Assembly: GCF_007828865.1 (NCBI RefSeq)
Contig: NZ_VIVK01000001.1
Location: forward strand, 5,084,001-5,148,000
Length of the DNA: 64,000 bases
Direction of reading: 5' to 3'
From: Kribbella amoyensis
Lineage (GTDB): Bacteria > Actinomycetota > Actinomycetes > Propionibacteriales > Kribbellaceae
Shown: positions 48,641 to 52,410 of the stretch, piece by piece
Position numbering within the stretch: the first letter of the stretch is position 1
How the letters are laid out: the number at the start of each line of letters is the position of its first letter
Made by a program: the position numbers and the translations under genes
The notes under the pieces: model-generated
Databases searched by the model: none
What the model was told of the DNA's origin: nothing
What the model saw: the letters and a program-made list of their open reading frames with translations, nothing else

Positions 48641-48751
48641 CGAAATCGCTGCCGCGGCAGGTGGATCCACGGCTCGTCACAACTTGTTAACCGTCCAGTA
48701 ATGGGGGCGGACCAGCGGGCCCAGTGGTTTGTAGGAGTAGGGTTTTGTGAC

Positions 48752-50194
48752 GTGCGTCGCGCAAAGATCGTTTGTACGCTCGGCCCGGCTACGGCCGCCC
48801 CGGAGCGCATCCTGGAACTCGTCCAAGCGGGCATGGACGTCGCCCGGCTCAACCTGAGCCACGGCGCCCACGCCGAGCATGAGCGGATCTACCAACGGAT
48901 CCGCACGGCCGCGGCCGAGACCGGCAAGAACGTCGGCATCCTGGTCGACCTGCAGGGCCCGAAGATCCGGCTGGCGGAGTTCGCCGAAGGCAAGGTCACC
49001 CTGACCTACGGCGAGCGCTTCACCATCACCACCCGCGAGGTCCCCGGCGACGTCACCATCTGCGGGACGACGTACGACGGGCTGCCCGGCGACGTGAAGC
49101 CCGGCGACCAGCTGCTCATCGACGACGGCCGGATCGCGCTGGTCGCCGAGGAGGTCACCGAGACCGACGTGATCTGCCGGGTCACCGTCGGCGGGCCGGT
49201 GTCGAACCACAAGGGCATCAACCTGCCCGGCGTCGCGGTCAGCGTGCCCGCGATGTCGGAGAAGGACGCCGAGGACCTGCGCTGGGCGCTGCACCTGCCG
49301 GCCGACATGATCGCGCTGTCGTTCGTCCGGGACGCCAGCGACATCCAGCTGGTGCACAAGATCATGGACGAGGAGGGCCTGCGGGTCCCGGTGATCGCCA
49401 AGATCGAGAAGCCGCAGGCGGTCGCGAACCTGGACGAGATCATCGAGGCCTTCGACGGCTTCATGGTCGCCCGCGGTGACCTCGGCGTGGAACTCCCGCT
49501 CGAGGAGGTCCCGCTGGTGCAGAAGCTGATCATCGACCAGGCCCGGCTGAACGCGAAGCCGGTGATCGTCGCCACCCAGATGCTGGAGTCGATGATCTCC
49601 GCCCCGCGGCCGACCCGGGCCGAGGCGTCCGACGTCGCGAACGCGGTGCTCGACGGCGCCGACGCGGTGATGCTGTCCGGTGAGACCAGCGTCGGCCGGT
49701 TCCCGATCGAGACGGTCAAGACGATGTCCCGGATCGTGGAGTCGACCGAGGACCACGGTCTCGGCCGGGTCCAGGAGATCGAGTGGGAGCCGCGCACCAA
49801 GGGCGGCGTGATCGCGAAGGCGGCCGCCGAGGTGGCCGACCGGATGGACGCGAAGTACCTGGTCGCCTTCACCCAGTCCGGCGACACCGCGCTCCGGCTG
49901 GCCCGGTACCGCACCGAGATCCCGGTGCTCGCGTTCACCCCGGTCCCGTCGGTCAGTTCCTGGCTGAGCGTGGTCTGGGGCATCGAGACCCACATCGTCC
50001 CCACCGTCGACCACACCGACGAGATGGTCCGCCAGGTCGACCAGCGCCTGCTCGAACTCGGCAAGCTCCAGAAGGGCGACCTCGTCGTCATCGTCGCCGG
50101 CAGCCCGCCCAGCATCCCGGGCAGCACCAACGCCCTCCGCATCCACCGCATGGGCGACGCCATCGAAGGCATCGCCCCGGGCTACCGCAGCTGA
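48752..50194 (+). CDS. pyk: Pyruvate kinase
   Basis: 480 aa. Converts phosphoenolpyruvate and ADP to pyruvate and ATP. Motifs: RRAKIVCTLGPA at the start, ARLNLSHG, the catalytic-lysine block VIAKIEKPQAV, MVARGDLGVELP and the C-terminal allosteric domain ending NALRIHRMGD. GTG 48752 gives the usual short N terminus; TAGGGT ends 8 nt upstream. Followed by a strong hairpin. Confidence 0.96.
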   Translation: MRRAKIVCTLGPATAAPERILELVQAGMDVARLNLSHGAHAEHERIYQRIRTAAAETGKNVGILVDLQGPKIRLAEFAEGKVTLTYGERFTITTREVPGDVTICGTTYDGLPGDVKPGDQLLIDDGRIALVAEEVTETDVICRVTVGGPVSNHKGINLPGVAVSVPAMSEKDAEDLRWALHLPADMIALSFVRDASDIQLVHKIMDEEGLRVPVIAKIEKPQAVANLDEIIEAFDGFMVARGDLGVELPLEEVPLVQKLIIDQARLNAKPVIVATQMLESMISAPRPTRAEASDVANAVLDGADAVMLSGETSVGRFPIETVKTMSRIVESTEDHGLGRVQEIEWEPRTKGGVIAKAAAEVADRMDAKYLVAFTQSGDTALRLARYRTEIPVLAFTPVPSVSSWLSVVWGIETHIVPTVDHTDEMVRQVDQRLLELGKLQKGDLVVIVAGSPPSIPGSTNALRIHRMGDAIEGIAPGYRS

Positions 50195-50254: not shown

Positions 50255-51028
50255 TCAGGTCTTCGGCCCGACGAATCGGTCCAGCGCGGCGACCGCCTCC
50301 CGCCGCGCGACCGACAGCAGCGTCGGCCGCGGCATCCGCCAAGGAATCTCCAGCAGATCCAGCGCCCACTGGCAGCAGCGCATGATGTCGCCGGAGGAGT
50401 TCGAGAACAGGTACCGCGGGTACTCGTAGCGCTTGGTCTGTCCGGCGACCTGCCGCCCGGTCCAGTTCAGAACGCGGCAGCCGTCCGAGTCGAACAGCCC
50501 ACGCACGAACCGTTCGGGGCTCCCGGCAACGATCTCCCGCTGCCAGTCCGCCAATTCGATCAGCCGCAGATGCTTCGGCCCGGCGCCGTGCTGAGGGAAC
50601 AGACACGGCCAGTGCTTCCAGTACGAGGTCACTTGCGTGCACCCGGCGGCGCGGGTGAGGTGTACCGGGCGCGTGGGGTGGACGGCAACAATTGACTCGG
50701 TGGCCTCGCTGATCAGACGGGGGTACGCGGTGTCGCAGGCGATGCGGAGGGAGTACACACCTTTCGCCAGCTTCGACAAGCAGCCATCACCCAGGTACAG
50801 CCCGATCAGGTGCGCGTAGGACGCCGAGTCCAGACCTCGCCCGGTACAGCGTGGGCAGGCGGTCGGATCGGCGTCACGTGGAGCCTCCTCCCGCCAGGCC
50901 CGCAGCGTCGCCCGGCTCGGCCCGAGCCGGCGACTGACCGAGCTGAGACTCTCACCCGAGCGCAGCGCCGCCAGGGCAGCCGACCGTCGGGACTCTTCGT
51001 ACACGAGGGAGAGCGTGGCAGCAGCCAC
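50255..51028 (-). CDS. HTH protein with LAGLIDADG homing-endonuclease-like domain
   Basis: About 257 aa. The N-terminal helix-turn-helix (SLSSVSRRLGPSRATLRAW, about 37-55) and a CPRC knuckle precede a domain with two LAGLIDADG-type motifs: HLIGLYLGDGCL and, about 100 residues later, FVRGLFDSDGC. In homing enzymes the acidic residue in each motif binds metal for DNA cutting; both are present here. The start is uncertain (GTG 51028 or 51004), and neither has a Shine-Dalgarno. The gene begins 18 bases after the 3' end of the tRNA on the same strand, so they may share a transcript. Whether it is a nuclease or a regulator is unknown. Confidence 0.75.
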   Translation of the reverse strand: MAAATLSLVYEESRRSAALAALRSGESLSSVSRRLGPSRATLRAWREEAPRDADPTACPRCTGRGLDSASYAHLIGLYLGDGCLSKLAKGVYSLRIACDTAYPRLISEATESIVAVHPTRPVHLTRAAGCTQVTSYWKHWPCLFPQHGAGPKHLRLIELADWQREIVAGSPERFVRGLFDSDGCRVLNWTGRQVAGQTKRYEYPRYLFSNSSGDIMRCCQWALDLLEIPWRMPRPTLLSVARREAVAALDRFVGPKT

Positions 51029-51046
51029 CGACAGTTCGGGAAAGTG

Positions 51047-51120
51047 TGCCCTGGGTGGGACTCGAACCCACACTGAACGGGTTTTGAATCCGCGCTCTCT
51101 GCCAATTGGAGTACCAGGGC
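51047..51120 (-). tRNA. tRNA with anticodon CAA (Leu), short variable loop
   Basis: A 74-nt cloverleaf on the minus strand: acceptor GCCCTGG/CCAGGGC (7 bp), D stem CTC/GAG, loop with AATTGGCA, anticodon loop TTCAAAA, T arm GTGGG-TTCGAGT-CCCAC and discriminator A. CCA is not encoded. The anticodon reads CAA, which decodes UUG. Leucine tRNAs normally carry a long variable arm (total about 85 nt), but here only five bases separate anticodon and T stems. The anticodon stem has one G-T wobble and one A-C mismatch. The identity is by anticodon only; charging may differ. Confidence 0.8.
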
Positions 51121-51205
51121 TGGCTTGCCAGATCCTAGCGTATCCATCGGACGACCGTGACCACGGGGCAGACGAAACTGTCGGTGCCTGCAGAGACCAT
51201 CGGTC

Positions 51206-51803
51206 ATGGCGCACTTTCGTTCTCAGGAGACCGTCGACTCCGCGTTGTGGATGTCGGACGCCGTGATAAGTGACCGGCGTAACGCTGAGATCCACGGGGT
51301 GGCTGTGAAGACCGTCAAGCGGTGGCGGCGGCAGTATCGCGAGCTCGGGCTGCCCCGGCACGCGGGCTTCCAAGGGACGCCCTGCCCTCGGTGCGACGGC
51401 GCGGCGCTGGACGAGGAGGCGTACGCCCTGCTCCTCGGTTGGTACCTGGGGGACGGGCACATCGTCGCGGCGCGGGTATACATCTGCGCCGGATCGAGCT
51501 GGTCGACTGGCAGCGGGAGATAGTTGCCGAGTACCCCGAACGGTTGCTGCGTGGCCTGTTCCACTCCGACGGGTGCCGGTTCGTGAACTGGGCCACCCGC
51601 ACGACCGCGGACGGGGGAGAGTGCGGCGGCACGAGTACGTCCGCTCCATGTTCTCCAACGAGTCGGACGACATCCATCGGATCCTCACCGACGCCTTGGA
51701 CGAGCTCGGGATTCCGTGGCGCCGGCCGCGGCGGAACGCGATCGCCGTGAGCCGGCGGGAAGGGGTCGCCGCGCTGGAGGGGTTCGTCGGTCCCAAGGGC
51801 TGA
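51206..51803 (+). pseudogene. Decayed paralog of the HTH-LAGLIDADG gene
   Basis: Three reading frames together rebuild a protein like the neighbour at 50255-51028. Frame 1 (51206 to about 51480) has the HTH VAVKTVKRWRRQ, CPRC and LLLGWYLGDGHIV; then about 60 residues are missing; frame 2 has RIELVDWQREIVAEYPERLL and RGLFHSDGC; after about 51610 frame 3 has YVRSMFSNESDDIHRIL and ends GFVGPKG, matching DRFVGPKT of the intact copy. One deletion and two frame changes make it a pseudogene. It is divergent from the tRNA, starting 86 bases away. Confidence 0.78.
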
Positions 51804-51815
51804 CGGCGCGATCGA

Positions 51816-51821
51816 TACAGT
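51816..51821 (+). promoter_or_regulatory. Putative -10 of a leaderless pdtaR transcript
   Basis: TACAGT ends 7 nt before the preferred GTG at 51829. A GTG at 51820 lies inside the box, which argues against using it. Confidence 0.45.
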
Positions 51822-51828
51822 GTGGGCT

Positions 51829-52410
51829 GTGACTGCTAAGCGTGTGGTGATCGCCGAGGACGAGGCGTTGATCCGGATGGATCTGGCCGAGATGCTGGCT
51901 GAGGAGGGGTACGACGTCGTCGGGCAGGCCGGCGACGGGGAGGAGGCCATTCGGCTGGCTTCGGAGTTGCGGCCGGATCTGGTGATCCTGGACGTGAAGA
52001 TGCCGAAGCTGGACGGGTTGTCCGCGGCCGAGAAGATCGCCGGTGAGCGGATCGCTCCGGTGCTGATGCTGACCGCGTTCTCGCAGCGGGAGCTGGTCGA
52101 GCGGGCCCGGGACGCGGGCGCGATGGCGTACCTGGTGAAACCGTTCTCCAAGACGGATCTGCTGCCCGCGATCGAGATCGCCGCCAGCCGGTACGTCGAG
52201 CTGGCCGAGCTGGAGCGCGAGGTCGCCGACCTGGCCGAGCGGCTGGAGACCCGCAAGCTGGTCGACCGGGCCAAGTCGATCCTGCAGACGAAGTTCGGCC
52301 TGTCCGAGCCGGACTCGTTCCGGTGGATCCAGAAAACCGCTATGGACAAGCGAGTTTCGATGCGCCAGGTGGCGGAGTTGGTGGTTGACGAGGCTGGCGG
52401 TAGCGACTGA
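51829..52410 (+). CDS. pdtaR: Response regulator with ANTAR RNA-binding domain (PdtaR type)
   Basis: 193 aa. Receiver domain with the acidic pocket AEDE, phospho-acceptor D55 (VILDVKMPK) and lysine in YLVKPFSK, linked by a coiled coil (about 125-150) to an ANTAR domain with DRAKSILQTKFGLSEPDSF. ANTAR proteins bind paired hairpins in nascent RNA and prevent termination. The sensor kinase is not adjacent, as in Mycobacterium. The location between pyk and polA matches the conserved actinobacterial position of Rv1626. Confidence 0.93.
   Translation: MTAKRVVIAEDEALIRMDLAEMLAEEGYDVVGQAGDGEEAIRLASELRPDLVILDVKMPKLDGLSAAEKIAGERIAPVLMLTAFSQRELVERARDAGAMAYLVKPFSKTDLLPAIEIAASRYVELAELEREVADLAERLETRKLVDRAKSILQTKFGLSEPDSFRWIQKTAMDKRVSMRQVAELVVDEAGGSD

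Follow-up and report, generated by a model that had tools for sequence, protein, structure and literature searches.

Genes for LAGLIDADG proteins with an added helix-turn-helix (HTH) domain lie on both sides of a tRNA gene on the chromosome of Kribbella amoyensis, one of them intact and the other decayed, and this arrangement raises the question of what such a protein does beside a tRNA gene. A first-pass annotation of the surrounding window of 64,000 nucleotides (assembly GCF_007828865.1, contig NZ_VIVK01000001.1, positions 5,084,001 to 5,148,000) had offered two answers, a mobile or tRNA-targeting system and a domesticated regulator, and had taken the decay of one copy beside the other as a sign of turnover. 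No report of an HTH-LAGLIDADG family beside tRNA-Leu was found in the open-licence literature searched. Here the locus is described and compared with its relatives in actinobacterial chromosomes and in viruses, and the resulting evidence is weighed for and against each explanation.

Results

Layout of the locus

The intact gene (LAG-A), a tRNA-Leu(CAA) gene and the decayed paralogue (LAG-B) sit together between a gene that we take to be pyk (pyruvate kinase) and a response-regulator gene, presumably pdtaR (Table 1). The arrangement described in the first-pass annotation was confirmed on both sides of the tRNA, the intact two-motif gene lying just past its 3' end on the same strand and the decayed relative being directed away from its other side. 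A GTG at 51028 is 17 bases from the tRNA edge called by ARAGORN at 51046; the GTG at 51004 (VYEES..) is the likelier start of LAG-A, judging from the usual start in the family (MYD.., MYP..) and the upstream sequence. The motifs of LAG-A read GLYLGDGCL and GLFDSDGC, and their acids, D81 and D182 when counted from 51028, are encoded at approximately 50786–50788 and 50483–50485. LAG matches its own genome four times, always at the tRNA-Leu(CAA) locus, and this tRNA has the only CAA anticodon among the 54 Rfam tRNA matches of the genome, all of which were named by ARAGORN. The arrangement of a group I intron-encoded endonuclease is not seen, the tRNA-Leu(CAA) gene being uninterrupted and the tRNA being all that Rfam finds in the window. 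Outside the window, the same genome has a small tRNA island (G000:C1:1130560-1135160) with odd extra tRNAs, including a short-variable-loop Leu-CAG, a second His and a Tyr.

Table 1. Features of the tRNA-Leu(CAA) locus, in window coordinates.
Feature	Position	Strand	Remarks
pyk	48701..50194	+	Left flank of the conserved site; name presumed
LAG-A, HTH plus two-motif LAGLIDADG gene, intact	50255..51004	-	Alternative start GTG 51028
CTGTCGGTG box	51026..51034	-	Putative -35 element of the LAG-A promoter
tRNA-Leu(CAA)	51046..51120	-	Short, class I-type variable loop; same strand as LAG-A
CTGTCGGTG box	51178..51186	+	Ahead of decayed LAG-B; from sequence
LAG-B, decayed paralogue	51206..51803	+	Frameshifted, readable in pieces in different frames; directed away from tRNA
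pdtaR, response-regulator gene	51820..52410	+	Right flank of the conserved site; name presumed

Of 50 Kribbella LAG genes, 44 are preceded by the CTGTCGGTG box with at most one mismatch, as are 5/9 in family f2, 4/7 in f5, 5/27 in f18 and 1/32 in f20, all of these being raw counts uncorrected for chance; the box looks like LAG's own promoter. The notion that the tRNA is a co-transcribed leader of LAG was dropped in view of this upstream box and of a hairpin between tRNA and LAG in Streptomyces, both seen by eye.

The LAG protein

An AlphaFold2 model of LAG-A (pLDDT 91.8, pTM 0.78) places the HTH at residues 12–47, ahead of the LAGLIDADG part, and in this model the protein has the LAGLIDADG fold with two motif repeats. 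Foldseek ranks I-Tsp061I first among PDB structures (E 4.5e-8) and also returns LAGLIDADG maturases (2ab5, E 1e-7). The VIA Z scores are nearly tied between the TliVMA intein endonuclease (16.9), I-DmoI (15.7) and WhiA (8dy7_I; 15.7, rmsd 3.2, 171 aligned). At the level of sequence, no Pfam or NCBIfam model exceeded its cut-off with the LAG-A protein, PDB sequences returned two matches only, both with E of 1 or worse, and no LAG protein match was obtained from a phage collection of 50,697 records or a plasmid collection of 72,556. Both motif acids are kept in all 121 full-length LAG proteins, scored as LGDG together with the motif 2 aspartate (114 by pattern, 7 read from printed segments). Among 41 aligned relatives, motif 1 GDG and motif 2 DG are invariant and a PQHG-x-G-x-KH-x-R block is mostly so; for alignment A2, L032 was left out (internal stop) and L028 was trimmed.

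Association with tRNA-Leu genes

The LAG family is present in 91 of 394 genomes sampled from the class, and a tRNA-Leu lies within 300 bp of LAG in 87 of these (79 CAA, 8 UAG); the remaining four consist of two contig edges (G050, G158), a fragment at 343 bp (G314) and G089, in which a weak LAG match of 42 residues lies by a tRNA-Gly. Within Kribbella (f1, with which five named Kribbella loci have sequence in common), 37 of 38 genomes have a LAG match and the 38th, G032, has a relic, while tRNA-Leu(CAA) adjoins LAG in all 30 loci fetched. A locus titled Streptomyces sp. SID13031 (L281) has sequence in common with G027 of the Kribbella group, and its title may be wrong. The usual gene order in the class is pdtaR, tRNA, LAG, pyk, with LAG downstream of the tRNA in most genomes. 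Genomes of f21 have LAG between the tRNA and pdtaR, divergent from the tRNA 5' end (4/5 genomes with nearby pdtaR); in eight genomes of f5 it occupies another locus, beside tRNA-Leu(UAG) and divergent from it. Beyond the class, 13 genomes of the phylum sample match LAG, and in all 12 LAG loci fetched from other classes a tRNA is no farther than 263 bp away; it is Leu in 11 cases (CAA 9, UAG 1, CAG 1) and Trp in one. Among 545 named relatives, the 80 best matches, including 12 genomes already in the sampled set, all have tRNA-Leu(CAA) at the locus, within 282 bp in 79 cases and at 2226 bp in one. At LAG-free sites, tRNA-Leu(CAA) is kept beside pdtaR and/or pyk in all 34 loci fetched from genomes chosen by tRNA patterns (24 class I, 10 class II).

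Since most loci in the class represent one site, much of the class-wide adjacency reflects one old site and few independent events; it is therefore the independent settings (f5, the other classes and the viruses) that matter for the link to tRNA. The link is real, LAG adjoining tRNA genes more often than chance would predict, and mostly leucine-specific. The expectation of the first-pass annotation that homologues would lie beside tRNA genes holds for nearly all of them, and they were found to lack neither a tRNA association nor the nuclease residues.

Form and variation of tRNA-Leu(CAA)

The Kribbella tRNA is of class I form in 25 genomes and of class II form, with a long variable arm, in 12, and G002 matches neither pattern; each of 17 loci searched with Rfam has a single tRNA. 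Across 32 class I sequences, 98.1% of cells are paired and 13 pairs are changed on both sides, the stems being kept through paired changes. A14 and A73, which are given as leucine identity bases in a passage of PMC9976931, are also kept, and together with the good pairing this makes leucine charging of the class I tRNA plausible. Identity of the Kribbella class I tRNA to that of the window ranges from 77 to 99% (24 genomes), against 97–100% for tRNA-Trp (37/37 others), 98–100% for Leu-CAG (36 listed) and 92–100% for Leu-GAG (35 listed), so that tRNA-Leu(CAA) varies more than these three; Leu-UAA and Leu-UAG stand at 94–100% (23) and 91–100% (14) among the matches listed. Variable columns are concentrated in the D and anticodon arms (20/36) and scarce in the acceptor and T arms (2/31).

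Family f19, with LAG in none of its 35 genomes, includes 33 genomes of five genera with one identical 29-base tRNA stretch, the other two being class II; it is a single family that may differ for other reasons, and this 29-base stretch also occurs in G294, which bears LAG. Among Streptomyces, genomes with and without LAG can have an identical tRNA, which therefore does not amount to a plain immunity allele. Two associations of tRNA form with LAG were rejected. A tie between LAG and the class I form was dropped because class I is common among LAG-free genomes of the class and LAG occurs in one of the 120 viral loci listed with the short-loop tRNA pattern. The idea that the class II form comes with LAG gave 11/33 in LAG-bearing against 0/6 in LAG-free f20 genomes (p 0.16), and a class II match is also present in LAG-free f18 genomes (G147, G168) and in many LAG-free f2 genomes. 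In LAG-free f5 genomes, the tRNA-Leu(UAG) pattern gave chance-like matches only. Tangentially, some families have short-variable-loop tRNAs with a UAA anticodon (L183:1486-1562 and rows of the TTAAA pattern), and the class I form is thus not confined to CAA. The f21 loci (L208/G237, L206/G246, L207/G263) have a differently built short-variable-loop tRNA-Leu(CAA) beginning GGCCCGG, a difference that suggests a separate origin.

Inheritance, loss and selection

On the LAG tree there are 8 changes of host family against a minimum of 7, and LAG distances rise with those of pdtaR in Kribbella (r 0.58, p 0.0005) and f18 (r 0.43), and weakly so in f20 (r 0.22, p 0.07); from these comparisons, LAG inheritance looks largely vertical within families. 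The distances of the tRNA do not track those of LAG in Kribbella (r 0.01) or f20 (r 0.02), nor those of pdtaR in either group; in f18 the tRNA tracks LAG weakly (r 0.32, p 0.01). No recent gain of LAG was found, although LAG-free sites exist among the class genomes. Loss is visible in G160, a LAG-free Streptomyces that keeps a 3' relic of LAG, and the turnover proposed from the K. amoyensis locus gains support from 16 of the 91 class genomes, in which every copy is broken or partial, in a few cases at a contig edge. Full-length LAG-A occurs in 22/25 class I and 1/12 class II Kribbella genomes (p 5e-6, ignoring relatedness), and tRNA class splits 14:0 in one LAG clade of f20 and 4:11 in another (p 5e-5, likewise ignoring relatedness). 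Estimates of dN/dS, which like the protein distances were made on full-length copies only, have medians of approximately 0.2 in Kribbella (up to two A copies falling in the B set when A and B were split) and 0.36–0.46 in the mixed f20 and f18 sets. By this measure, LAG gene bodies are under purifying selection.

Viral relatives and split tRNA genes

Viral relatives of LAG with 29–42% identity lie 8–132 bp from a tRNA in all seven of the closer lineages, counting L304 and L305 as near-copies of L303 and L308 and L309 as near-copies of L307. The tRNAs concerned are Leu-UAA, Leu-UAG, Met and Leu-CAA, and for each viral locus the probability of lying this close to a tRNA by chance was 0.003–0.128 by a crude test in which one tRNA was read by eye; in L306 the nearest tRNA-Leu, at 36 bp, was seen by eye and the nearest called tRNA is an Ala at 76 bp. 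Weak relatives outside these lineages (L311–L314, L326 and L327; 25–30% identity over roughly 110–130 residues) have no tRNA at the locus in L311, L312, L313, L314 and L326. In three viral loci (L310, L318, L322) the 5' half of a tRNA-Leu stops just past the D arm, ahead of LAG, and in L310 the LAG stop is followed directly by the T arm and acceptor 3' strand that match this half, both features being read by eye and pattern. With tRNA-Leu halves on both sides, the LAG reading frame of L310 therefore lies inside a tRNA-Leu gene. On the downstream side of chromosomal LAG genes, no tRNA remnant or target duplication was found beyond chance (2/128 with z > 3).

Several further observations concern viral tRNA-Leu. 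L310:4700-5530 also has a complete class I tRNA-Leu(CAA), in frame between the HTH and LAGLIDADG parts of LAG. Viral contigs commonly have a short-variable-loop tRNA-Leu(CAA), which ARAGORN calls in 113 of 120 listed pattern loci (L328–L447). Cluster J mycobacteriophages are described in a passage of PMC3706429 as integrating at a tRNA-Leu gene, one of the two att borders falling within its anticodon loop.

Comparison with known systems

By analogy, the closest known kind would be SegB of the T-even phages, with LAG as a variant of the tRNA-linked homing endonuclease. Passages of PMC13096335 and PMC2988022 describe SegB homologues as enriched near tRNAs, and the former describes SegB as a phage GIY-YIG enzyme without isotype preference. 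Both are freestanding genes of homing-endonuclease type adjoining tRNA genes, cleavage by LAG being presumed; LAG differs in combining LAGLIDADG with an HTH, in almost invariably adjoining tRNA-Leu and in occurring mainly in chromosomes, and the GIY-YIG domain of the SegB family has no place in its predicted fold. Among cellular proteins, WhiA (DUF199) comes closest in composition, being an actinobacterial LAGLIDADG fold with a helix-turn-helix and a strong structural match. Its HTH is C-terminal and that of LAG N-terminal, a passage of PMC4255298 describes WhiA as being without catalytic residues, and no tRNA setting is described for it in the sources consulted, whereas LAG has both invariant motif acids and a tRNA beside it. 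I-DmoI, I-Tsp061I and other two-motif LAGLIDADG endonucleases have, like LAG, two repeats in one chain, but those enzymes are intron-encoded, whereas LAG is a freestanding gene with an intact tRNA as its neighbour and encodes an HTH. The nearest Pfam family, LAGLIDADG_3 (PF14528), matches LAG-A weakly around motif 2, under its curated cut-off (20.9 against 22.5 bits).

Discussion

LAG-A is probably a freestanding, chromosome-resident homing endonuclease that targets tRNA-Leu, a reading in which cleavage, its exact site and homing are inferred. It would be a LAGLIDADG enzyme, extended by an HTH at the N-terminus, that is dedicated to tRNA-Leu genes and encoded next to its presumed target. Such an enzyme would bind and cut the tRNA-Leu gene in LAG-free DNA, probably in the stretch of the D and anticodon arms; repair templated by a LAG-bearing copy would then insert LAG at the break, at times along with the adjoining tRNA allele, and resident copies would decay afterwards, as LAG-B has. 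This explanation draws on the fold, the kept motif acids and the adjacency to tRNA-Leu in unrelated settings, on the existence of LAG-free sites with the tRNA, on frequent breakage and on tRNA variation that is both concentrated and compensated, as well as on viral tRNA-Leu pieces that end after the D arm. It has to contend with the tracking of hosts within families, the absence of recent gain, the uncorrelated distances of tRNA and LAG and the absence of a downstream remnant. The mobile or tRNA-targeting system of the first-pass annotation is retained as the best reading, while the vertical inheritance and lack of recent gain count against its mobility.

Its other proposal fares less well. 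That LAG is a DNA-binding regulator domesticated in the manner of WhiA, controlling the tRNA or itself with its nuclease activity lost or unused, accords with the HTH, the structural match to WhiA, the long vertical residence in Kribbella and Streptomyces, the low dN/dS in Kribbella and the recurrent upstream box; but a regulator of this kind would hardly be expected to keep both acids without exception when WhiA is described as lacking catalytic residues, to occur in under a quarter of the class genomes and be broken or partial in 16 of these, or to have phage relatives beside other tRNAs, and we consider it unlikely. The adjacency could also be mostly a single event, tRNA genes being common landing sites and LAG the passive neighbour of one, with one old insertion between pyk and pdtaR inherited ever since. 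One site is indeed common to most loci of the class and LAG is clustered by family, yet leucine is favoured again in independent settings (the tRNA-Leu(UAG) of f5, other classes, phages) the gene bodies are kept by purifying selection, and no integrase or att repeat was noticed incidentally, which leaves this account rather improbable. Very little probability attaches to a protein that works on the transcript and not the gene, whether a tRNA maturase, a processing factor or a tRNA nuclease: no intron is seen in the tRNA, changes that preserve the fold of the stems would matter more to a reader of DNA than to a reader of RNA shape, and certain viral loci have the tRNA-Leu gene itself split into two parts, against which stand the LAGLIDADG maturase among the structural matches and the fact that the partner is a tRNA.

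An elaboration of the homing endonuclease reading, which we put forward only tentatively, is an escape race in which LAG would cut the D and anticodon stretch of tRNA-Leu and hosts would respond by swapping or compensating stems, up to an exchange between class II and class I forms. LAG together with a resistant allele would then form a module resembling cleave-and-rescue, with phages as one source. It would work like engineered home-and-rescue or cleave-and-rescue gene drives, with the difference that those are designed and rescue by the LAG module is hypothetical.

Overall, it looks as if LAG were a selfish gene coupled to its neighbouring tRNA. If LAG is indeed a homing endonuclease, many actinobacteria, among them Streptomyces, would have had a DNA-cutting selfish gene as a long-standing chromosomal neighbour of a single tRNA gene, related genes being present in phages, and tRNA-linked homing endonucleases would extend from phages to the chromosomes of cells. 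There would also be a cause for the odd and fast-changing tRNA-Leu(CAA) of these bacteria, including the loss of its long variable arm, and the locus would provide a natural model for the evolution of a host tRNA under attack on its own gene.
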